The position numbers were made by a program, and so were the translations under genes. A stretch of 64,000 nucleotides of DNA from Rhodothalassiaceae bacterium (GTDB lineage: Bacteria; Pseudomonadota; Alphaproteobacteria; Sphingomonadales; Rhodothalassiaceae), in the NCBI GenBank assembly GCA_026004935.1, contig BPKC01000001.1, forward strand, positions 62,001-126,000. Reading direction: 5' to 3'. Of this stretch, positions 5,486 to 62,490 are shown piece by piece; position 1 is the first letter of the stretch; each line of letters opens with the position of its first letter. The notes below the pieces were generated by a model, which did no database searches, had not been told where the DNA came from, and worked only from the letters and a program-made list of their open reading frames with translations.

Positions 5486-6148
5486 TCATCGCGGCGCGGG
5501 CGCGGCGTCAGCCTGGCGGCCGTCCGCGGGCAGCAGCGGGTGATTCTCGACGCCGCCCACGAGGCCGGCGGAGATCACGTATTTGATCGCCTCCTCCACG
5601 CTCATGTCGATGAAGATGCAGTTGCGCCGCGGCACGAAGAGAAGGAAGCCGGAGGTGGGATTGGGCGTCGTCGGCAGGAAGATGTTGAGCATCTCGGGCT
5701 CGACCGCGCGGCTGATCTTGGGGCTCGCCTCGCTGGCGACGAAGGCGATCGCCCACAGGCCCGGACGCGGATATTCGACGAGCACCACCGAGCGGAAGGT
5801 GCCGCTCGCGGGCTTCATCACCGTCTCGGCGATCTGCTTGACGGTGCCGTAGATCCCGCGCACCACCGGCAGCCGCTGCAGCAGCCGCTCGCCCAGCGCG
5901 AGCAGCTTGCGGCCGGCGAAATTCGTGACGAAGGCGCCGAAGGCCGTGATTGCGATCACCGCGACGACGAGCCCGATGCCCGGCACCGCGATCGGCAGCC
6001 AGTCGCTCGGGCCGTAGGGCGGCGGGATCAGGCGCGCGACGAGGCCGTCGACGGAGCGCACGAACAGCCACACGAGATAGACGGTCACCCCGATCGGCGC
6101 GAAGACCGCAAGCCCCGTGAAGAAGTAGTTGCGCAGCCGCGTCCACAT
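5486..6148 (-). CDS. DUF502 family membrane protein
   Basis: 220-residue protein starting MWTRLRNYFFTG. Two transmembrane segments near the N-terminus (about 10-32 and 50-75) precede a soluble domain with the family blocks RLPVVRGIYGTVKQ, FVPTTPNP-like LPTTPNPTSGFLLFVP and MSVEEAIKYVISAGL. DUF502 proteins are conserved but uncharacterised. Upstream in-frame Met residues exist, but the stretch before 6148 is Arg/Gly-rich and unlike the family. It is the last gene of the minus-strand lptF-lptG-flippase-GNAT run, 58 bases after the previous stop. Confidence 0.85.
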   Translation of the reverse strand: MWTRLRNYFFTGLAVFAPIGVTVYLVWLFVRSVDGLVARLIPPPYGPSDWLPIAVPGIGLVVAVIAITAFGAFVTNFAGRKLLALGERLLQRLPVVRGIYGTVKQIAETVMKPASGTFRSVVLVEYPRPGLWAIAFVASEASPKISRAVEPEMLNIFLPTTPNPTSGFLLFVPRRNCIFIDMSVEEAIKYVISAGLVGGVENHPLLPADGRQADAAPAPR

Positions 6149-6206
6149 GGCGCCCCGCCTCCGCTCCTCGTCTCGTCCGGACCGCCCCGCGCCGCCCGAT
6201 CCTACA

Positions 6207-7358
6207 TCACGCGAGCGGCTTCTCATAGATGCGGTAGGTCTTGTAGATGACGCAGCCGATCTCCTCGAGGATGTCGCGCATGCCGCGGTTGTCCTCGAGA
6301 ATCCAGGAAAGCTCCGCTCTGAGCGCGCCGCGCGCGGCGTTGGGGATGCGCGTCGCCTCGATCATCATCAGCGCCATCTGTGCGCCGGCGAGCGAGCGCT
6401 GATGCGCCTTGCGCACGCCCATCAGCGGCACGCGGAAATGCCTGAGCGGCTTCAGATACAGGCGGGCGAGAAGACGCGCCCAGTTGAACGGCAGCAGCCG
6501 GCCGCCAAAGTCCCGGATCAGGCGGTTGATGTCGGGCAGCGTCACCATCATCGCCGCCGGCTCGCCGCGGTATTCGCAGATGAACACGCAGTCGCGCCGG
6601 ATGAGGGGCCGGATCTCGCGGGCGAGATGCCGTCCCTCCTCCAGCGTCAGCGGCACGAAGCCCCAGTTCTCGGACCACGCGTCGTTGAAGATGTCGACGA
6701 TGACGGCCAGCTCCTCGTCGTAGCGGCGCATGTCGAGCGGGCGCATGCGGATGCGCGGGTTGCGGTGCCCGGCCTCCACGATGCGCGTGATCCGCTCCGG
6801 CGGGCCCTTCGTCACGTCGAGGTCGTAGGCGTAGAGGTCCTTGGCCTTGGCGTAGCCCAGCGCCTCCAGCAGGCGCGCATAATAGGGGCGCGCATGGCCC
6901 ATCATGATCGCGGGCGGCGTGTCGAAGCCGGCGATGAGCAGGCCGCATTCGCCGTTGGTCGAGAGATTGTAGGGCCCCTGGGCCGCCACCGCGCCGCGGG
7001 CCTTGAGCCAGGACTCGGCCGTGGCGAACAGGGCCGCCGCCACATCTTCGTCGTCGACGCATTCGAACAGGCCGAAGTGGCCGAGCCGTCGGCCCGCGCG
7101 CTCCACCGCGAGCCGGTCGATCTGGGCGCTGATGCGGCCGACCGGCTCGCCGTCGCGCCAGGCGATCCAGAACGCGGCCTCGGCATGCCGGAAATAGGGA
7201 TTGTGCCGGCGATCGAGCAGCGCGAGGCGCTCGAACATGAGCGGCGGCACATGGTTCGGGTCGTCGCGGTAGAGCCCGTCGACGAAGCGGATGAAGGTCT
7301 TGAGCTGGCGGCGGGTTTCGACCGGTGTGACCGTGACGCCGCCTTGGCGCGCGCTCAT
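6207..7358 (-). CDS. GNAT-fold N-acetyltransferase-like protein, substrate unknown
   Basis: 383-residue protein of a family common in alphaproteobacteria and annotated as N-acetyltransferase (sometimes as dATP pyrophosphohydrolase). An N-terminal block (FVDGLYRDDPNHVPPL, then NPYFRHAEAAFWIAWRDGEPVGRISAQID) and a C-terminal block with ALMMIEATRIPNAARGALRAELSWILEDN both resemble halves of GNAT folds. No donor or acceptor can be inferred. The start overlaps the stop of the upstream flippase gene by 4 bp (ATGA), indicating translational coupling, so a role in modifying an exported glycan or lipid is plausible but unproven. Confidence 0.72.
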   Translation of the reverse strand: MSARQGGVTVTPVETRRQLKTFIRFVDGLYRDDPNHVPPLMFERLALLDRRHNPYFRHAEAAFWIAWRDGEPVGRISAQIDRLAVERAGRRLGHFGLFECVDDEDVAAALFATAESWLKARGAVAAQGPYNLSTNGECGLLIAGFDTPPAIMMGHARPYYARLLEALGYAKAKDLYAYDLDVTKGPPERITRIVEAGHRNPRIRMRPLDMRRYDEELAVIVDIFNDAWSENWGFVPLTLEEGRHLAREIRPLIRRDCVFICEYRGEPAAMMVTLPDINRLIRDFGGRLLPFNWARLLARLYLKPLRHFRVPLMGVRKAHQRSLAGAQMALMMIEATRIPNAARGALRAELSWILEDNRGMRDILEEIGCVIYKTYRIYEKPLA

Positions 7359-8884
7359 GGCTCCTCCTTGCCCCGTCTCAGCCAGAGCGCGAGCCGCCCG
7401 AAGGCCCGCGCGTCTTCCGCATCGAGGCCATAGCGGACGAGCAGCCCGAAGGCCAGCAGCAGCGCCGCCACCAGGACGGCGAAATGCGCAATCTCCGGCA
7501 CACGCCCCTCGAGCAGGGCATCAAGGGCGAGCAGCGCGGCCGCGAGCGGCAGGCAGACCGCAAGCGGACGCAGCATCTGCCGGTTCCAGGCGCAAATCCC
7601 CGTCGCCAGTCTCAGTTCCAGAGCCGCAAGGCCGTGGGTGACGACGAGGCCGGTCGCCGCGCCGACGGCGGCCCCGGGCGCCCCGTGGGCGGGGGCGAGC
7701 AGCGCGACGAGGAGAAGCATCACGGCCACCCCGGCCACCCCGTTCGCGAGCACCAGCCGGCTCGAGACCATGGCGCGCAGCACCGCCTGCGCCTGGCCGA
7801 AGAAAAAGCTCGCAAGGCGTCCCGCCACGAGGATGCCGAGGGTCGGCGCGATCGCGTCCGCATCGCTGCCGAGCGCGGCCGCGAGCAGATCGCTCGCCGC
7901 GACGAGGCCCGCCGCGAGCAGCGTGCCGGAGGCGAGCATGAGCCGGGTCGCGTAGGCGTGCAGGTCGGCGATCCGCCCGCGTCCCGCCTGCGCCAGGTGA
8001 TGGGCGGCGAGCGGGGCCATCACGTAGTCGAAAGCGTTGAAGACGAGCTGCATGACGGAGGCGATCTTGCGCGCGACCGCATAGTAGCCGGCGGAAATCG
8101 CGCCCGCCGCACCCGGCAGCAGACCGTTCAGGATCACCACCGGCAGCTCCGAGAAGCCGCGCTGGATGAGCTCGCTCGGCATCAGCGGCAGCGCATAGGC
8201 CCACAGCCGGCGCCGCTCCTCCCGCCCGAGCGCGGCGCGAGGAAGGCGCGCGAGATCGTAATGCTTCGCGACCAGCGCCAGCGCGAGCCCGGCCGCGATC
8301 ACCGCCGAGCCGAGATGCGCAAGGAACAGCCCCGCCTTCATCACGCCGGCGAGCGCGAGCCCCGTGCCCAGCGCCAGGCGCAGCACCTGCTCGTAGAAGA
8401 TCCGCACCCGGATCTCCGGGCCGAAGCGGCGCAGGGCGCGAATCGCCCCGGTCAGCACCTCGAGCGCCGTCCAGGCCGGGACGATCCAGGCGAACAGCGC
8501 CATCAGCCACGGGCCGTCGGCGCCCAGCGCGCCGCTGCGGTCCACGAGCCGGGCGAGCCACGGGGAGAGCGCCGCGACGGCGGCGACGACCACGAGGCTT
8601 GCGCCGAGCGCACGCACGAGGGCGAAGCGCAGCACGGCCGCAAGCCGATCCGCGTCATGCTCGCGCGCGGGCACGAACTGCTGGAGCATCAGCACCATGC
8701 CGAGCTGCGTGAAGCCCGCGGCGAGCCGCGCGGCCGCCCAGGCGGTGGCGTAGATGCCGAACAGCACCGGGCCGTAGAGGGCGAAGAAGAGGGGAAAGCT
8801 CGCCGCCTCGACCACCGCGCCGAGACGGCCGAGAAAGGCGAGCCCCACCCCGCGCATCAGCACCTGCCGGTCGGCCGCCGCCAT
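7355..8884 (-). CDS. Polysaccharide/LPS flippase-like membrane protein (MATE/Wzx superfamily)
   Basis: 509-residue integral membrane protein with about twelve to fourteen hydrophobic helices over its whole length, resembling Wzx/oligosaccharide flippases of the MOP superfamily. Supporting stretches are the opening GVGLAFLGRLGAVVEAASFPLFFALYG and the internal SAGYYAVARKIASVMQ, typical of the polysaccharide_synt domain. Such proteins flip lipid-linked saccharides across the inner membrane. It sits 6 bases downstream of lptG and overlaps the GNAT gene, so it is probably part of an LPS/envelope operon. The exact substrate is unknown, and no glycosyltransferase genes lie nearby. Confidence 0.75.
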   Translation of the reverse strand: MAAADRQVLMRGVGLAFLGRLGAVVEAASFPLFFALYGPVLFGIYATAWAAARLAAGFTQLGMVLMLQQFVPAREHDADRLAAVLRFALVRALGASLVVVAAVAALSPWLARLVDRSGALGADGPWLMALFAWIVPAWTALEVLTGAIRALRRFGPEIRVRIFYEQVLRLALGTGLALAGVMKAGLFLAHLGSAVIAAGLALALVAKHYDLARLPRAALGREERRRLWAYALPLMPSELIQRGFSELPVVILNGLLPGAAGAISAGYYAVARKIASVMQLVFNAFDYVMAPLAAHHLAQAGRGRIADLHAYATRLMLASGTLLAAGLVAASDLLAAALGSDADAIAPTLGILVAGRLASFFFGQAQAVLRAMVSSRLVLANGVAGVAVMLLLVALLAPAHGAPGAAVGAATGLVVTHGLAALELRLATGICAWNRQMLRPLAVCLPLAAALLALDALLEGRVPEIAHFAVLVAALLLAFGLLVRYGLDAEDARAFGRLALWLRRGKEEP

Positions 8885-8890
8885 CGCCGC

Positions 8891-10042
8891 CTACTCCTCC
8901 GTGAAGAACAGGACGGCGAGGCCGACGGCGAGAAACAGCACGAGCGGCGAGAAGGCCGCCAGCACCGCGGGCACCACGCCGAACTCGCCCATCGCCAGCA
9001 TGAAGTTGTCGATCACGAAATAGGAGAAGCCGAGCGCGGCGCCGGCCGCCATGCGGACCACGAGCTGCCCGCGCCGGTGGACGCCGAAGCCCGCGATCGC
9101 CGCCAGAAGCGGCATCAGCACGAAGGACAGCGACAGCGCGAAGCGGTGGTAGAAGGCCGCCTCGAGATCGGCCGCCGGTTCGCCCTCCGCCTTGCGGCGG
9201 CCGATGGCACGCGCCAGCGCGTCGAGCGTCGTCTCGTCTGCCGCGACGTGCAGGGCGAACAGCCGCTCCGGGCTCGCCGAAAACCTCCAGGGCCGCTCGT
9301 CCGCATAGGACAGATCGAGGGTGTCTGCGGCGAACCGCCTGACCTCGAACAGCCGCCAGCGGCCCTGCTCGTACCAGGCGAAGGCGGCGCGGGTCACCGC
9401 CGTCAGCATGCCTTCGGCGTTGCGCTCGTAGATCGTGATGCCGTCGAGCACGACGCGGCTGCCCGAGCGCGAGGCGCGGGCGATGAAGACGAGGTCGCGG
9501 CCGTCGACGAGGGCCAGATCGCGGACCGTCTCGGGTCTCGGCGGCAGGTCGCGGGCGTAACCCGCCTCCTGCCAGTAGGCCAGCGCCGCGCGCGCCGGCA
9601 CGGTGATCCGGTCGCTGATCCAGAAATGCATGAGCGCCATCGCGACCGCCGTGAGCGTGAAGGGCAGCAGGATGCGGTGCGGCGACATCCCGCCCGCCTT
9701 CAGCACGATGATCTCGCTGTGCTGGTTGAGCTCGGCGAAGGCGACGATGGCCGCAAGCAGCACGCAGAAGGGGGCGAACCGGGTAAACAGGTCCGGCAGC
9801 CGCCAGGCGACGTAGCGCAGGATCTCGGCCGAGCCGTTGCCCGGCACCGCGAGGATCTCCGCCGAGCGCGAAAGCAGATCCAGCATCTGCAGCACGGCGA
9901 GGATGAGGAACAGCACGAACAGGACGCGGGTCGCAAACAGCCGCGCGAGATAGCGCAGGACGGTGCGCGACGGCAGGAAGTAGCGCCGCAGCAGCCGCAT
10001 CCGCGACGGCGCGCCGCCCGCTCCTGCGGCCGCATCAGCCAT
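8891..10042 (-). CDS. lptG: LPS export ABC transporter permease LptG
   Basis: 383-residue permease of the LptF/LptG (YjgP/YjgQ) family. Three N-terminal membrane segments, including a coupling-helix region around LNQHSEIIVLKAGGMSPHRI, are followed by a periplasmic beta-jellyroll domain (about 120-290) and three C-terminal membrane segments. With LptF and the LptB ATPase it extracts LPS from the inner membrane. Its start overlaps the lptF stop by 8 bases. Being the second of the two and carrying the EIIVLKAGGMS block, it is called LptG; the two paralogues can be confused. Confidence 0.88.
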   Translation of the reverse strand: MADAAAGAGGAPSRMRLLRRYFLPSRTVLRYLARLFATRVLFVLFLILAVLQMLDLLSRSAEILAVPGNGSAEILRYVAWRLPDLFTRFAPFCVLLAAIVAFAELNQHSEIIVLKAGGMSPHRILLPFTLTAVAMALMHFWISDRITVPARAALAYWQEAGYARDLPPRPETVRDLALVDGRDLVFIARASRSGSRVVLDGITIYERNAEGMLTAVTRAAFAWYEQGRWRLFEVRRFAADTLDLSYADERPWRFSASPERLFALHVAADETTLDALARAIGRRKAEGEPAADLEAAFYHRFALSLSFVLMPLLAAIAGFGVHRRGQLVVRMAAGAALGFSYFVIDNFMLAMGEFGVVPAVLAAFSPLVLFLAVGLAVLFFTEE

Positions 10043-11291
10043 GGCCCGTCATCCTTCCCATGGCCCATTTCGCCATCCGCCCCAGCCGGTCCGCGACCCG
10101 GTCGAGGCGCCCGAGCGCGCCGCGGCCGGGGTGGAAGGCGACGCTCCAGAAGAAGAAGCCCGCAAGCCCCGCGAATCCCGCAAAGAGGGCCCACTGCGTG
10201 AGCCAGGGGTCGCCTCCCGCCTGCACCGCGCGGGTCGCCGCCTCCTCGAGCTCGTTGTAGACGATGAGCAGGGCCGTCGCGAGCACGAGCCCGCCCGCAC
10301 CCGAGCCGCGCTTGCGCACCGTGCCGAAGGCCACGGCGAGCAGCGGCAGCACCAGCGCCGTGAACAGATGCACGACCCGCCAGTGAAAGGCGCCCCGGTA
10401 GTGGGCGCGCCGGTCCGGCGGCGTCGCGGGATCGCGCATCGCCGTCCACAGCTCGTCCAGCGTCATCTCCAGCTCCTCGCCGCCGCGGCGGCGGAAGGGC
10501 TCGATCTGCGGCAGATCGACGAGCAGGTCCTGGAGCGCGAATTCCATCACCCGCGGGCGCGCGTGGCGGGGATCGAAGTCCAGCATCACGCCGTCCTGAA
10601 GCCTCAGGATGATCTTCTGCTCGTCCTCGGTCCCGACGAACCGGCCCTCGCGGGCGGTGATGCTCATCTCGCGGCCGTTCGCAAGCATGCGCCGCACGAA
10701 GAGATCGCGCAGCGCCCGCCCGTCCGCCCCGGCCTCGCCGACGCGCAGCGTCAGCCCCTCGCCCAGCGGCGAGAAGGCGCCGAGCCGGATGCTCGCGCCC
10801 AGCGCCCCGGAGCGCAGCTCGAATTCCAGCTGGCGGTAAGCGTAGCGGCTGACCGGCTCCTGCCAGCCGACGATCGCAAGATCCGCCAGCCCGAGGGCGA
10901 CAGCCACCAGCATCAGCGGCCGCATGATCCGCGGCAGGCCGACGCCGCCCGCCTGCAGGGCGTCGAGCTCGGAGGACAGCGACAGATTTCTCACGACGAT
11001 CAGCGCCGCCACCAGAAAGCCCACGGGAAGCGCCATGCCGAGGTAGTGGGGAACCAGATGCAGCAGCATCCGCCACACCACGTCCACGGGCCCGTTCTGG
11101 TTGACGACGAAGTCGAACAGGCGGAGCATCCGCTCGAGCAGCAGAAGCGCCAGCGCGATCGCGACGGTGGCGGCAAGCGGAGGCGCCAGCCGACGCAGCA
11201 CGTATCTGTCGAGAAGCGCAAGGCGCAGCACCCGGTCCCGCCCTTCTCCGCGGCTCGGATCGGCCGCAAGCGCGGCCACGGCGCTCTTCAT
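10035..11291 (-). CDS. lptF: LPS export ABC transporter permease LptF
   Basis: 418-residue LptF/LptG-family permease. Membrane segments at about 35-60, 75-100 and 120-145 are followed by a periplasmic domain (about 150-310) and three C-terminal segments. The coupling region reads LSLSSELDALQAGGVGLPRIMRP. The ATG at 11291 gives a normal length; longer in-frame extensions are Arg-rich and run into the divergent lipid-kinase gene. It leads an operon with lptG, a flippase, a GNAT protein and a DUF502 protein. The 126-bp gap to the divergent kinase gene holds a small perfect palindrome. Confidence 0.88.
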   Translation of the reverse strand: MKSAVAALAADPSRGEGRDRVLRLALLDRYVLRRLAPPLAATVAIALALLLLERMLRLFDFVVNQNGPVDVVWRMLLHLVPHYLGMALPVGFLVAALIVVRNLSLSSELDALQAGGVGLPRIMRPLMLVAVALGLADLAIVGWQEPVSRYAYRQLEFELRSGALGASIRLGAFSPLGEGLTLRVGEAGADGRALRDLFVRRMLANGREMSITAREGRFVGTEDEQKIILRLQDGVMLDFDPRHARPRVMEFALQDLLVDLPQIEPFRRRGGEELEMTLDELWTAMRDPATPPDRRAHYRGAFHWRVVHLFTALVLPLLAVAFGTVRKRGSGAGGLVLATALLIVYNELEEAATRAVQAGGDPWLTQWALFAGFAGLAGFFFWSVAFHPGRGALGRLDRVADRLGRMAKWAMGRMTGHG

Positions 11292-11362
11292 GCCGGGATG
11301 CCGGGCGCAAGACAAGGGCGGCCGCGGGCGGCTGGATTTTCCCGTCCGGCCTGTGTCATAGA

Positions 11363-11417: not shown

Positions 11418-12464
11418 GTGCAGCCCTTTCCGCAGGCCGACGGCACGATGACGGCGGCCGAGCCCGTGCGGCCCGAAGAGACCGCACAAGGCCTCGTCGG
11501 CGTGCTCACCAACACGGGGGCGACCCGCGTCCGCCGCAGCCTCAAGGCCCTGCGTGAGGCGATCGGCGGCAGCCGCGGCGTCCTGCATGTGGAAATCCGC
11601 GACCCCGGCGACGTGCCGGATGCGCTGCGTCTGCTCGCCGCATCGGGCGTCTCGCTTCTGTGCATCAATGGCGGCGACGGCACGGTGCAGATGGTCGCGG
11701 AAGCGCTCGACCGGGGCGTCTGGCGCGGCACGCCGCCGCCGATCGCGGTGCTGGCGGGCGGCCACACCAATCTGATCGCGACGGATCTCGGCACCGCGGG
11801 CGATCCGCTGCGGGTGTTCGCCCGCCTGCTCGCGGCACAGCGGGGCGATGCCCCATCCGGCCGGGCGCCGCGGGTCGTCACCCGCGTGCCGGTGCGCATC
11901 GAAGGCGGCGGGCTCGCGCGCGCGCGCGCGGGCTTCTTCGTCGGACTCGCCGGCATCCCGCGCGCGACGGACTGGGCGAGGCGGCGGGTCCAGCATCCGC
12001 TGGTGCCGCTGTGGCTGCATGATGCGGCCTCCATTCTGCTGCTCGCCGCATCCGCGCTGCTCGATCTCGGACGCTCGCCGCTTGCTCCCGTCCCGCTCGC
12101 CTTCACGCTGGAAGACGGGAGGGTGGTCGAGGACGCCTTTTCGGTCGCGATCGCCACATCCCTGCCGCGGCTGCTGCTGGGCGCGCGGCTGTTCGCCCGG
12201 CATGACGGCGAGACCGTCCAGTTCGCCGCCTTCTCGCGCCTCGGCCCGGCGCTCGTGCGCGCGCTCATGGCCGCCTTGCGGCATCGCCTGCATCTCGCCC
12301 GGATGAAGGAGCTCACGCTTGAGCGGGTGCGCCGGCTCGTCGTCGCGGGCGCGGGCGAGATCGTCGTCGACGGCGAGATCGTCGATCTCGATCCGGGCGA
12401 GCCGCTCGTGCTCTCCGCCGGCCGGCCGCTGCGCTTTCTCGCCCTCCGGGCGGACCCGCGATGA
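11418..12464 (+). CDS. Diacylglycerol-kinase-family lipid kinase (candidate ceramide/sphingoid kinase)
   Basis: 348-residue protein with the DAGK catalytic fold. The ATP-binding signature NGGDGTVQMV (GGDGT at about 85-89) and LAGGHTNLIATDLG (normally GGTxN) are clear; the C-terminal part carries the beta-rich second domain ending EIVVDGEIVDLDPGEPLVL. The family phosphorylates diacylglycerol, sphingosine, ceramide or undecaprenol. GTG 11418 is chosen for the GAGAGGA site 8 bases upstream; ATG 11448 is an alternative. Its stop overlaps the next gene (ATGA), and the two converge on spt, so a sphingoid lipid substrate, as for Caulobacter CpgB, is a reasonable inference but not proven. Confidence 0.82.
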   Translation: MQPFPQADGTMTAAEPVRPEETAQGLVGVLTNTGATRVRRSLKALREAIGGSRGVLHVEIRDPGDVPDALRLLAASGVSLLCINGGDGTVQMVAEALDRGVWRGTPPPIAVLAGGHTNLIATDLGTAGDPLRVFARLLAAQRGDAPSGRAPRVVTRVPVRIEGGGLARARAGFFVGLAGIPRATDWARRRVQHPLVPLWLHDAASILLLAASALLDLGRSPLAPVPLAFTLEDGRVVEDAFSVAIATSLPRLLLGARLFARHDGETVQFAAFSRLGPALVRALMAALRHRLHLARMKELTLERVRRLVVAGAGEIVVDGEIVDLDPGEPLVLSAGRPLRFLALRADPR

Positions 12465-13444
12465 CCGCAAGGGCCGAGGCGACCGCCGCTCTCGACCGGC
12501 TGCTCGCCGCGGCCCTGACCGGTCGCGCCCCGCCCGGGGCGGTGCGCGCATTCGCCGGCGAGCTCGCCGCGCGCCATGGCGGCGCGGTCCGGGCCGTGCT
12601 CTACTACGGCTCCTGCCTGCGCACCGGCGTGCTCGAGGACCGGATCCTCGACTTCCATCTCCTCGTCGACCGCTATGCCCGCGCCTATCCCGGCCGGCCG
12701 CTCCTTGCGGCGGCGAATGCCGTGCTGCCGCCCAACGTCTTCTTCGCCGCAAGCGCCACCGCCCGCGACGCCCGGGGCGCGCCGCTCAAGGCCAAATACA
12801 ATGTCGTCAGCCTTCCGCAGCTTTCCCGGCTCGTCTCCAGGCGCACGCGCCAGGTCTGGTTCTGGGCCCGCTTCGCCCAGCCGATGGCGCTGGTGGAGGC
12901 GGCGGATGAGGAGCTGCGCGCGCGGATAGCCGCGATCCAGCGCGAGGCGCTGCTGAGCTTTCTCGCCGCCGCCCTGCCGCTGGCCGAGGACGGGGCGGAT
13001 GCGGCGGCCGTCTTCGCGCTCGGCTTCGAGAGGAGTTATGCCGCGGAGCTGAGAGCCGAACCTCCCGGCAAGGGCGCGGAGCTCTATGCGCTCGATGCCG
13101 CCTTCTATGACCGCGTCTTCGCGCCGGCGCTGGCCGCGCTCGGCTGGCCGGTCGTCGCCGATCCGGCGGCACGTGGGGGCGTGCGCATCCTGGGTGCGGA
13201 TCCCGCCATGGCGGAGGCGGCCGAACGCGCCTGGCGGCGGCGGCGGCGGATCAGCCGTGCGCTTGCGGTGCTCCGGCTCGCGAAAAGCGCCTTCACCTTC
13301 TCGGACGGGGCCGACTACATCGCCTGGAAGATCCGCCGGCACGCGGGCGTGGAGGTGGAGCTTTCCGATTTCGACCGCCGTCACCCGCTGCTTGCGGGCA
13401 TCAGGCACTACTGGCGGCTGAAGCGGATGGGGGCGTTTCGCTGA
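12461..13444 (+). CDS. Tam41-like nucleotidyltransferase (phosphatidate cytidylyltransferase-like)
   Basis: 327-residue protein. Residues about 46-70 carry a nucleotidyltransferase pattern, LYYGS followed by ILDFHLLVD (acidic D64 and D70). Further on, KYNVVSLPQLSRLV (about 112-125) and WARFAQPMALV match the order KYGVIS...L..L...AGRL.KPV of the mitochondrial CDP-DAG synthase Tam41/Mmp37. Tam41 makes CDP-diacylglycerol from phosphatidate and CTP. I recognise the resemblance from motif order, not from an alignment. It is translationally coupled to the upstream lipid kinase, and its 3' end overlaps the convergent spt gene by 44 bp, suggesting it acts on that kinase's phospholipid product. Confidence 0.65.
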   Translation: MTARAEATAALDRLLAAALTGRAPPGAVRAFAGELAARHGGAVRAVLYYGSCLRTGVLEDRILDFHLLVDRYARAYPGRPLLAAANAVLPPNVFFAASATARDARGAPLKAKYNVVSLPQLSRLVSRRTRQVWFWARFAQPMALVEAADEELRARIAAIQREALLSFLAAALPLAEDGADAAAVFALGFERSYAAELRAEPPGKGAELYALDAAFYDRVFAPALAALGWPVVADPAARGGVRILGADPAMAEAAERAWRRRRRISRALAVLRLAKSAFTFSDGADYIAWKIRRHAGVEVELSDFDRRHPLLAGIRHYWRLKRMGAFR

Positions 13445-14642
13445 CGGGCAGCCCGAGCCGCCGCCCCGCGCGGGCGAAGGCGGCGAGAATCTCCTCCACC
13501 TGCTCGTCCGTGTGCCCGAGGCCCAGGGAGCAGCGCAGCAGGAACAGACCCCTGGGCGTGGCCGGCGGGCGCGCGACATTCACATAGACGCCCTCCTCGA
13601 GCAGCGCCGCCGACATGCCGAAGAGCGTCTCCTGGTCCGGCAGGCGGACCGCCACGATCGGGCTTTCCACCCGCTCGGTGCCGAGCGCAAAACCCATGGC
13701 CTTGAGTCCCGCATGCAGGCGTTCGACCTTGCGCCAGAGCGCCCGCCTCTCGTCATGCATGCGCGCAAGCTTCTCGATCGCGACAGTCGCGGAGGCGACG
13801 ACGGAAGGCGGTGAGGACGCCGTGAACATGTAGGGCCGGCAGACGAAGCGCAGCACCTCGAAATGCGGTTGGTCGCTGACGCAGAAGCCGCCGACCGTGC
13901 CCACCGATTTCGAAAAGGTGCCGACGATGAAGTCGACCTCTCTGTCCACGCCCAGTTCTTCGGCGATCCCGCGGCCGTGCTCGCCGCAAAAGCCCATGGA
14001 ATGGGCCTCGTCCACCAGGATCTGGGCCCCGAATTCCTTCGTGACGGCGACGAGCTCGGCGAGCGGCGCGCGGTCGCCCAGCATCGAGTAGATGCCCTCC
14101 ACGACGACGAGCTTGCCGGCGTCCTCCGGCAGGCGCCTCAGCCTTTTCGCCAGATCCTCGGGGTCGTTGTGGCGGAAGCGCACGACGTCCGCCTGGCCCA
14201 TGGCGCAGGCGTCATAGATGGAGGCGTGGGAATCCGCGTCGATCACCACATAGTCGCCGCGTCCGGCAAGCGTGGAGATGATCCCGAGATTCGCCTGGTA
14301 GCCGGTGGTGAACACCATGGCGTGGCGGCGGTCGTAGAAGCGTGCCAGCGTCTCCTCCAGCCGGCGGTGCAGCACATAGGTGCCGTTCAGGATCCGGCTG
14401 CCGGTGGTGCCGGTGCCGAAGCGCTCGAGCGCCTCGCGGGCGGCGGCGATGGCGTCCGGATCGAATGTCATCGCCATGTAGTTGTTGGTGCCGGCGAGGA
14501 TCGTGCGCCGGCCGTTGACGATGGCCTCGGTGGGCGAGAGCACCCGCTCCATCGTCACGTCGAGCGGATCGGGCGCGAAGGCCTTCAGCTTCTCGCGCTC
14601 GGCGACCAGCGGAGCGAATTTGGCAAGCAGGTCCCGGCTCAT
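13401..14642 (-). CDS. spt: Serine palmitoyltransferase (alpha-oxoamine synthase)
   Basis: 413-residue PLP enzyme of the alpha-oxoamine synthase family. The cofactor Lys is at about K245 in GTFSKSVGTVGGFC; DADSHASIYD (H139) stacks on PLP and DEAHSMG (D211, H214) is conserved. The opening (SRDLLAKFAPLVAERE), AGTNNYMAMTFDP and VCRPYMFTAS are those of Caulobacter/Sphingomonas serine palmitoyltransferases rather than of BioF or HemA. It condenses serine with an acyl thioester to 3-ketosphinganine, the first step of sphingolipid synthesis. The upstream acyl carrier protein gene overlaps it by 4 bp, so acyl-ACP may be the donor. No ceramide synthase is in the window. Confidence 0.88.
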   Translation of the reverse strand: MSRDLLAKFAPLVAEREKLKAFAPDPLDVTMERVLSPTEAIVNGRRTILAGTNNYMAMTFDPDAIAAAREALERFGTGTTGSRILNGTYVLHRRLEETLARFYDRRHAMVFTTGYQANLGIISTLAGRGDYVVIDADSHASIYDACAMGQADVVRFRHNDPEDLAKRLRRLPEDAGKLVVVEGIYSMLGDRAPLAELVAVTKEFGAQILVDEAHSMGFCGEHGRGIAEELGVDREVDFIVGTFSKSVGTVGGFCVSDQPHFEVLRFVCRPYMFTASSPPSVVASATVAIEKLARMHDERRALWRKVERLHAGLKAMGFALGTERVESPIVAVRLPDQETLFGMSAALLEEGVYVNVARPPATPRGLFLLRCSLGLGHTDEQVEEILAAFARAGRRLGLPVSETPPSASAASSA

Positions 14643-14908
14643 CGGCCCTCTTCCCGGATGCGGTCCACGGCGGCCGCCACCTCGCCCACGGTCTCCAGCT
14701 CCGGCAGGATGTTGAGCGGGATGACGATGTCGAATTCGTCCTCGATCGCCGCCACCAGATCCATCACCGCCAGCGAATCGAGATCGAGATCGCCGGCGAA
14801 GGTCGTGCGCGGGGTGATCTCCACCCCCTTCCTGTTGAAGGGCGCGATCAGCGCCGCGATGCGCCGGAAGGTCTCGCGATGGGCCTCGATGTCGATGGGC
14901 TCGGCCAT
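14639..14908 (-). CDS. acpR: Acyl carrier protein of the spt locus
   Basis: 89-residue acyl carrier protein. The phosphopantetheine attachment site is LDLDSLAVMDLV (about S45), followed by EDEFDIVIPLNILPELETVGEV, the usual helix II-III region. A canonical AGGAGG site precedes ATG 14908. It overlaps spt by ATGA, as expected for a dedicated carrier that presents the acyl chain to Spt, the role assigned to AcpR in Caulobacter. It is too divergent from the usual housekeeping AcpP (DSLD / DSLDTVE) to be that gene. Confidence 0.87.
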   Translation of the reverse strand: MAEPIDIEAHRETFRRIAALIAPFNRKGVEITPRTTFAGDLDLDSLAVMDLVAAIEDEFDIVIPLNILPELETVGEVAAAVDRIREEGR

Positions 14909-61203: not shown

Positions 61204-62490
61204 ATGAGCGAAGAGAAGAAATACCGCCGGCGCCGCATCGACGGCCATGAGCTCAAACCCGAAACCCTGATGATGAGCTACGGCTACGACCCGCAGCTGT
61301 CGGAAGGCGCGCTCAAACCCCCCGTCTTTCTGACCTCCACCTTCGTCTTCAAGAGCGCCCGGCACGGCAAGGACTTCTTCGATCTCGTGGCCGGCCGGCG
61401 CGAGCCGCGCCCGGGCGAGGAGCCGGGGCTCATCTACTCGCGCTTCAACAATCCGGACATCGAGATTCTCGAGGACCGCCTCGCGCTGTGGGAGAAGGGC
61501 GAAAAGGCGGTGGTGTTCGCCGCCGGCATGGCCGCGATCTCCGCGACCCTGTTCGCCTACGTGCGGCCCGGCGACGTCGTCGTCCACTCCCAGCCGCTCT
61601 ACGGCGGCACCGAGCAGATGCTGCTCACCTTCCTGCCGCAGTTCGGGATCCGGACCGTCGGCTTTCATGCCGGCGAGGGCCGCGCGGCGATCGATGCGGC
61701 GATCGAGAAGGCGCGGGCCATGGGCCCCGTGCGGATGCTGTTCGCCGAGACCCCGGCCAATCCGACGAACGGCCTCGTCGATCTCGCCCATCTCGTCTCC
61801 TGCGCCCGCGCGCTCGAAGACCAGCCGGGCGGGCGGCCGCTCGTGGCGGTCGACAACACCTTCCTCGGCCCCGTGTGGCAGAACCCGCTCGAGCTCGGCT
61901 GCGACCTCGTGCTCTATTCCATGACCAAATACATCGGCGGGCATTCGGATCTGGTCGGCGGCGCCGTCGTCGGCGCGAAGGTTCATGTCCAGCCGATCCT
62001 GCAGCTGCGCGGCATGCTCGGCATGCAGCTCGATCCGCACTCCTGCTGGATGGCGCTGCGCTCGCTCGAGACCTTGAAGATCCGCATGGAGCGGGCGACC
62101 GAGAACGCCCGCGTCGTCGCGGAATTTCTGCGCGGGCACCCGAAGGTGGCCGAGGTCCACTATCTCGGCTTCCTGCCCGAGGGCAGCGAAGAGCGCGCCA
62201 TCTACGAGCGCCAGTGCAAGGGGGCCGGGTCCACCTTCTCCTTTGCCATCAGGGGCGGCGAGGCGGAGGCCTTCCGCTTCCTCGACGCGCTCCAGGTGGC
62301 CAAGCTCGCGGTCTCGCTCGGCGGCACCGAGACGCTGATCTCGCATCCGGCGAGCACGACGCATTCCGGCGTGCCGAAGGAGATCCGCGAGGCGGCCGGC
62401 GTCACCGATTCGCTCATCCGCATCTCGGTCGGCATCGAGGCGGCCGAGGATCTGATCGCCGACCTCGCCCAGGCGCTGGAGCGGATCTGA
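61204..62490 (+). CDS. Cys/Met-metabolism PLP enzyme (cystathionine gamma-synthase family; MetZ/methionine gamma-lyase-like)
   Basis: 428-residue PLP protein. The cofactor Lys is about K242 in LYSMTKYIGGHSD; YSRFNNP (about 78-84), FAAGMAAISA and ETPANPTNGLVDL are family blocks. A longer N-terminus (RRRIDGHELKPETLMMSYGYDP) and SCWMALRSLETLKIRMERA are typical of an alphaproteobacterial branch annotated only as cystathionine gamma-synthase family. Possible activities are O-acylhomoserine sulfhydrylation or methionine gamma-elimination; MetX at 48360 would supply the former's substrate. A GGAGGAGA site supports ATG 61204. Confidence 0.85.
   Translation: MSEEKKYRRRRIDGHELKPETLMMSYGYDPQLSEGALKPPVFLTSTFVFKSARHGKDFFDLVAGRREPRPGEEPGLIYSRFNNPDIEILEDRLALWEKGEKAVVFAAGMAAISATLFAYVRPGDVVVHSQPLYGGTEQMLLTFLPQFGIRTVGFHAGEGRAAIDAAIEKARAMGPVRMLFAETPANPTNGLVDLAHLVSCARALEDQPGGRPLVAVDNTFLGPVWQNPLELGCDLVLYSMTKYIGGHSDLVGGAVVGAKVHVQPILQLRGMLGMQLDPHSCWMALRSLETLKIRMERATENARVVAEFLRGHPKVAEVHYLGFLPEGSEERAIYERQCKGAGSTFSFAIRGGEAEAFRFLDALQVAKLAVSLGGTETLISHPASTTHSGVPKEIREAAGVTDSLIRISVGIEAAEDLIADLAQALERI

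Follow-up and report, generated by a model that had tools for sequence, protein, structure and literature searches.

A lipid kinase of the DAGK family and a nucleotidyltransferase (NT) with a predicted Tam41 fold are encoded together, opposite a gene for serine palmitoyltransferase (spt), in the stretch of DNA analysed here (the window; 64,000 nucleotides, positions 62,001 to 126,000 of contig BPKC01000001.1 of a Rhodothalassiaceae bacterium). We favour, as reasonably probable, the interpretation that the two enzymes form a CpgB-CpgC-type pair which supplies cytidine diphosphate (CDP)-ceramide for an anionic sphingolipid, and that this lipid is exported by an LptFG permease dedicated to sphingolipids in a bacterium free of lipid A. 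The pathway to which the pair belongs is already known and in part understood; what is new here is a pair without a CpgA match, apparently without lipid A, and beside the only LptFG of its genome. A broader proposition, which we advance with more hesitation, is that a CDP-ceramide route runs parallel to that of CDP-diacylglycerol and that in lipid-A-free bacteria of this kind a sphingolipid-specific LptFG has captured the entire Lpt bridge, a sphingolipid thereby standing in completely for lipopolysaccharide (LPS) in the outer leaflet, while bacteria that keep LPS run two pairs, one per cargo. The substrates, products and transport cargo given below for the kinase, NT and LptFG are those that we infer.

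The kinase-NT pair and its linkage to spt

The kinase (plus strand, from a GTG at 11418 or an ATG at 11448 to 12464) is a probable ceramide kinase at the position of CpgB; it matches Pfam DAGK_cat (1.5e-11), and in a 100-row alignment of the window kinase with 99 kinases from the other loci the GGDGT columns are kept in 93-100% of rows and the T-N that follows in 85-93%. Its 3′ end shares the sequence ATGA (12461-12464) with the start of NT (12461-13444, plus strand), which holds the position of CpgC and, on the evidence of a predicted model, is probably a cytidine triphosphate (CTP):ceramide-1-phosphate cytidylyltransferase. NT converges on spt (13401-14642, minus strand) with a 44-bp overlap at 13401-13444. 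The spt product scored 612 bits against NCBIfam SerpalmtaseBetaP (NF047599; cut-off 500) and 624.5 bits against SerpalmtaseAlphaP, short of the cut-off of 670, and the gene is adjoined by one for an acyl carrier protein (acp, 14639-14908, minus strand; PP-binding, 2.3e-12). The open reading frames, strands, ATGA coupling and convergent overlap with acp-spt are all as described in an earlier note made from the window alone.

Co-occurrence was assessed in a class sample of 289 alphaproteobacterial genomes (the window genome being G000), in which NT homologues were called at E <= 0.001 and spt by NF047599 at E <= 1e-110. NT homologues were found in 35 of these genomes and spt in 40 (39 above the family cut-off), with spt present in 34 of the 35 NT genomes (Fisher p 6e-37, kinship uncorrected). 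The association of the pair with spt drawn in the earlier note is upheld by this distribution, as across the 289 genomes the pair does not occur mainly without spt. That NT is general to alphaproteobacteria is ruled out by its presence in only 35 of the 289. A second set of loci, termed named loci, was obtained by profile search of genome contigs with a 9-row NT alignment, the best 80 being kept out of 577 relatives that were confirmed; these include contigs titled Nitrospirales or Nitrospirota, Deltaproteobacteria, Desulfobacterales, Nitrosospira, Nitrococcus and Calditrichota, and no contig title among the best 80 names Caulobacter. Where 1.3 kb or more of upstream sequence is available, 72 of 76 named loci have the kinase immediately before NT, as do 23 of the 30 class loci with enough flank, while spt is convergent to NT within 3 kb in 44 of 68 named and 20 of 30 class loci. 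As the kinase precedes NT and spt converges on it in most loci, the arrangement is not due to chance. The 44-bp overlap was considered as a possible special signal; an overlap of 44 or 83 bp is seen in 9 of 67 convergent loci.

The overlap of NT and spt measures 44 bp in the window and in locus L031, and exactly 83 bp in L032, L042, L052, L053, L059, L060, L100 and L109; where the two genes overlap, the tail of spt is antisense to the conserved C-terminus of NT.

The adjacency of a DAGK-type kinase, NT, spt and acp places the locus with the CpgB-CpgC module of Caulobacter. As for CpgB-CpgC (CC_1160-CC_1161), a gene of the ceramide-kinase type stands beside a putative nucleotidyltransferase and adjoins spt-acp, and as in the Caulobacter cpg region a ceramide synthase gene (cerS), a flippase candidate and lptFG are found nearby. 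In related loci such as L062 and L132, the genes run cc1153-like, cerS, fatty-acid-hydroxylase-like, lptG, lptF, phosphoesterase, cpgA-like, kinase and NT, with spt, acp, cerR and aasR facing cpgA-like-kinase-NT; the protein names in these loci were assigned here by comparison with the published Caulobacter list, and the gene order is consistent with that of CC_1153 to CC_1165 as numbered in the literature (PMC11324152). The likeness to the Caulobacter spt region drawn in the earlier note is thus supported by a cpgB-cpgC-like layout in related loci, and it is this gene order together with the published numbering that would identify the window pair with CpgB-CpgC. Since kinase and NT occupy the cpgB-cpgC position, the basic system is already known. 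CpgB is a ceramide kinase (PMC10331486), and CC_1161 is required for ceramide phosphoglycerate, mutants making none that is detectable (PMC11324152). CC_1161 was suggested to make nucleoside diphosphate (NDP)-activated ceramide because it carries a CDP-diacylglycerol synthase InterPro domain (PMC11324152, Olea-Ozuna 2024), while in a 2025 paper CpgC is said to act by an unidentified mechanism (PMC12275187).

Fold of NT and the proposed activation of ceramide

The locus offers a candidate for the CpgC step in the form of a Tam41-fold enzyme. A model of NT was predicted with AlphaFold2 from a 29-row alignment (mean predicted local distance difference test score 93.7, predicted template modelling score 0.90), and a Foldseek search with this model returned five Protein Data Bank (PDB) matches with E <= 0.001, all of them Tam41 chains (E 1.5e-7). 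VIA-align superposed the model on Firmicutes Tam41 7ecd with a Z of 18.2 over 231 residues (root-mean-square deviation 3.5) and on Schizosaccharomyces pombe Tam41 6ig2 with a Z of 16.2 over 224 residues (deviation 4.2), the top unrelated entry being an aminoglycoside nucleotidyltransferase with a Z of 7.1. In the predicted model NT is therefore of the Tam41 fold, that is, a nucleotidyltransferase domain with a winged helix, and the Tam41-like label which the earlier note gave from motifs alone is borne out at this level by the Z of 18.2 to 7ecd.

At the level of sequence the relationship is distant. The window NT gave no Pfam or NCBIfam match at E <= 0.1, the Pfam Tam41 family (PF09139) included, and NT shares just 12-15% identity with 7ecd and 6ig2, mostly under Pfam detection. 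Tam41 was not reached when NT homologues were used to search PDB sequences, either as a profile or by phmmer, and the Pfam Tam41 profile returned one under-cut-off match, itself an NT, in the 289 genomes and none in 14 controls. It counts against our interpretation that with this profile only 2 of 29 NT homologues reach E <= 1 (best 8e-7) and that the Caulobacter control gave no match. The connection of NT to Tam41 thus derives from the fold and the weak Pfam matches of two homologues. Residues Y49, G50, D64, K112, W135, R137, Q140 and P141, among others, are invariant in the 29 NT rows, and D64 is the single invariant acidic residue of the nucleotidyltransferase motif, a feature shared with 7ecd and 6ig2 and counted in favour of our interpretation because Tam41 is described as retaining one of the three usual acids (PMC11646218). 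The last helix of NT (309-322) is basic (net +4, moment 0.53), and SpTam41 has a basic membrane-binding helix (PMC7018664); the likeness is weak, as widening the stretch to 303-322 lowers the moment to 0.20, and it is residues 252-269 that have the highest moment.

Unlike the Tam41 CDP-diacylglycerol synthases, NT is linked to spt and to a gene of the ceramide-kinase type, and it is likely, given the predicted fold, to be a CTP:ceramide-1-phosphate cytidylyltransferase. In the scheme that we propose, the kinase would by its family and position convert ceramide to ceramide-1-phosphate, which NT, judging from the Tam41 fold and the gene coupling, would convert with CTP to CDP-ceramide, the presumed donor for an anionic phospho-headgroup. 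We infer CDP-ceramide formation by NT in line with the earlier proposal of NDP-ceramide for CC_1161 (PMC11324152). If NT were instead a CDP-diacylglycerol synthase of the same kind as mitochondrial and Firmicutes Tam41, with the kinase making phosphatidate, the link to spt would reflect no more than shared membrane regulation. The nearest solved structures of NT are indeed CDP-diacylglycerol synthases, and CpgB phosphorylates diacylglycerol in vitro with an activity comparable to that on ceramide (PMC10331486), which also tells against our own interpretation; however, NT usually lies beside spt, which accompanies it in all but one of the NT genomes, the CC_1161 mutants are devoid of detectable ceramide phosphoglycerate, and deletion of cpgB in Caulobacter leaves phosphatidate unchanged (PMC10331486), so that we regard this explanation as quite improbable. 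Activation by NT of a small headgroup phosphate such as phosphoglycerate, rather than of a lipid, is also unlikely: it has a precedent in CpgD, a cytidylyltransferase of the same Caulobacter region that does so (PMC12275187), but CpgD belongs to COG1213 and not to the Tam41 fold, known Tam41 enzymes use a lipid phosphate (PMC7018664, PMC11646218), NT is coupled to a lipid kinase, and its basic last helix recalls membrane-bound Tam41, albeit as a weak point.

The headgroup step following the proposed CDP-ceramide formation would differ from that of Caulobacter. No match to CpgA was found in the window genome at E <= 0.001 with a CpgA-like protein from G175 as query, and CpgA is needed for the second phosphoglycerate, that of the CPG2 pathway; CpgD, CC_1153 and CC_1158 likewise gave no match in the window and four other stretches of the genome, the part searched. 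Two types of cluster can be distinguished among the loci: one has cpgA, cc1153 and cc1158, whereas the other, represented by the window, has the flippase candidate and is without these three genes, the one exception being L053, which has cc1153. The layout of the window cluster recurs in L032, from the cultured relative Iodidimonas muriae. With CpgA missing, headgroup transfer would fall to another CDP-alcohol phosphotransferase and the product would probably be a single-headgroup lipid, for example ceramide phosphoglycerate. The window genome encodes three CDP-OH transferases, namely PgsA (146.5 bits; NCBIfam cut-off 109.1), PssA (109.5 bits; cut-off 107) and a PgsA/Cls-like protein encoded outside the window (L155:9569-10093, plus strand) which falls under every NCBIfam cut-off and may be the enzyme that transfers the ceramide headgroup. 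No known CDP-ceramide-to-headgroup enzyme is among the three, a further point to the detriment of our proposal. Genes resembling cerR (41%) and aasR (48%) lie side by side elsewhere in the window genome, so that each of the five ceramide genes has a candidate there.

In addition to cpgA, the clusters L049, L062, L074, L080, L113, L120, L123 and L124 have another CDP-alcohol phosphotransferase-like gene, which is a candidate for the first headgroup step from CDP-ceramide.

The sphingolipid-linked LptFG and the lipid A genes

Beside the pair lie lptF (10035-11300, 5′ end approximate; Pfam 1.2e-55) and lptG (8891-10042; Pfam 7.1e-63), both on the minus strand and assigned from trees as permease genes of the sphingolipid-linked LptF2 and LptG2 type. 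These encode the only two LptF_LptG domains, that is the one pair, of a genome of 2.91 Mb listed as 100% complete, in which LpxC and LpxB, the two lipid A enzymes searched for out of a pathway that also includes LpxA, LpxD, LpxK and KdtA, gave no match; LptD is present at an unlinked site. The lipid A route thus appears to be lost, and the cell surface may be built from sphingolipids instead of LPS. Caulobacter, in contrast, has LpxC and LpxB (as controls) and a published second LptC/F/G set. Transport of phosphosphingolipids by LptF2/LptG2 was already proposed for Caulobacter (PMC11324152, Olea-Ozuna 2024); the window shares with that system a second-type LptFG encoded inside the sphingolipid cluster and differs in that this pair is the sole LptFG of its genome. 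Outward transport by the LptF2-LptG2-type permease together with LptD would complete the proposed route, as suggested by gene linkage, by the trees and by the lack of LpxC and LpxB matches.

LpxC was found in 243 of the 289 class genomes, and spt in 24 of the 46 LpxC-negative as against 16 of the 243 LpxC-positive genomes (Fisher p 1.8e-12, kinship uncorrected). Two LptFG pairs are present in 15 of the 16 LpxC-positive but in none of the 24 LpxC-negative spt genomes: of the former, 14 have four LptFG domains, one has five and one has two, whereas 20 of the latter have two, one has three and three have none. LptD occurs in 38 of the 40 spt genomes, G066 and G280 being those without it, and one of the two LptFG pairs adjoins lptD in G026, G123, G124, G158, G163, G202, G230 and G256. 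By hand-collated coordinates, the distance of the LptFG pair from NT or spt is no more than 15 kb in 19 of the 21 LpxC-negative spt genomes that have LptFG.

Trees of LptF (67 rows) and LptG (66 rows) were computed by a quick IQ-TREE run with Shimodaira-Hasegawa-like approximate likelihood ratio test (SH-aLRT) support only; they include 15 of the 80 named loci, two identical rows were dropped from each, and a pair lying away from NT in an LpxC-positive genome was labelled LPS-type. All 15 LPS-type pairs and one G246 pair fell on one branch (SH-aLRT 99 for LptF and 100 for LptG). This branch excludes the window pair and those linked to sphingolipid genes, as well as the single pairs that G012, G145 and G244 each have, so that the window LptFG groups with pairs of sphingolipid clusters and apart from the LPS-type. 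The LptF tree gives the sphingolipid group of the alphaproteobacteria a support of 92, with the third G244 gene as a very long branch inside it, while in both trees the other G246 pair shares a separate branch with five rows that do not belong to the class. That the window lptFG is an ordinary LPS pair is ruled out by its placement in the trees, its being the sole pair and the lack of an LpxC match.

The earlier note had envisaged a surface lipid complementing LPS. While its spt link, Tam41-like enzyme and gene layout have stood, this part has not: with no LpxC or LpxB match and a sole lptFG pair that groups with sphingolipid-linked pairs, the lipid more likely replaces LPS. LPS-lacking sphingomonads bear glycosphingolipids, and this background makes it possible, if rather doubtful, that the pair works as proposed but LptFG exports mainly glycosphingolipid, with the phosphosphingolipid being minor or regulatory. 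The same-order, LpxC-negative G012 and G145, which keep spt and a sphingolipid-type LptFG without an NT match, are in keeping with such a cargo, but among loci with long flanks, 45 of 47 named and 22 of 25 class loci have an LptF or LptG homologue close to NT, which argues against this explanation. Sphingomonas is itself known to be without lipid A.

A number of exceptions weigh against export of the anionic sphingolipid by a dedicated LptFG and against the coupling of NT to spt. G128 is the sole NT genome without spt, although its NT match is weak (3.6e-4), and six spt genomes are without an NT match (G012, G145, G066, G079, G246 and G280). Neither G145 nor G244 has its LptFG pair close to spt or NT, and G244 has in addition a third, divergent LptF-like gene; G079 has LpxC and just one LptFG pair; and no LptFG match was found in G066, G071 (82% complete) and G280. 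LpxB-like matches occur without LpxC in G058 and G275, and LpxC occurs without an LpxB match in G027 and G227, both fragmented assemblies. The two G246 pairs are split in the trees, one lying with the LPS-type and the other with non-alphaproteobacterial cluster pairs. Lastly, the LpxC state needs at least 3 changes among the 34 sphingolipid-linked tree rows, so that the number of independent events behind the LptFG pattern is small.

G066 and G280, which share the genus code g69, have spt and showed no match to NT, LptF/LptG, LptD, LpxC or LpxB.

How sphingolipids reach the outer membrane is stated as not known in PMC11324152. For export of the anionic sphingolipid the locus provides a transport candidate in the form of an LptFG clade whose occurrence follows that of sphingolipid genes; of the 21 LpxC-negative spt genomes in which LptFG occurs, 20 have no LptFG other than that of this clade. 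The question is directly testable in this bacterium because there is a single LptFG pair and no LpxC or LpxB match, so that LPS should not confound the outcome. No report of the LpxC/LptFG-copy pattern or of the NT fold assignment was found in a literature search that left most subscription journals outside.

Neighbouring genes

The two lpt genes head a minus-strand run beside the kinase-NT pair, the remaining members of which encode a membrane protein that is a candidate lipid flippase (7355-8884; MatE at 0.025 only, under cut-off), a GNAT-like protein (6207-7358; Acetyltransf_1 at 0.0074, under cut-off) and, as the last gene, a DUF502 membrane protein (5486-6226; 1.6e-33). The GNAT-like protein is a candidate bacterial ceramide synthase, which we name CerS from its position. 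Among loci with long flanks, 44 of 47 named and 17 of 25 class loci have a homologue of it close to NT, and 22 of 47 and 3 of 25 have one of the weak-MatE protein. A DUF502 homologue is close to cerS in L032, L053, L100 and L109. A 260-aa membrane protein encoded near cerS (L130:2676-3458 and similar) carries fatty-acid-hydroxylase-like histidine motifs and is a candidate ceramide hydroxylase; it was observed near NT in 22 of the same 47 named and 20 of the 25 class loci.

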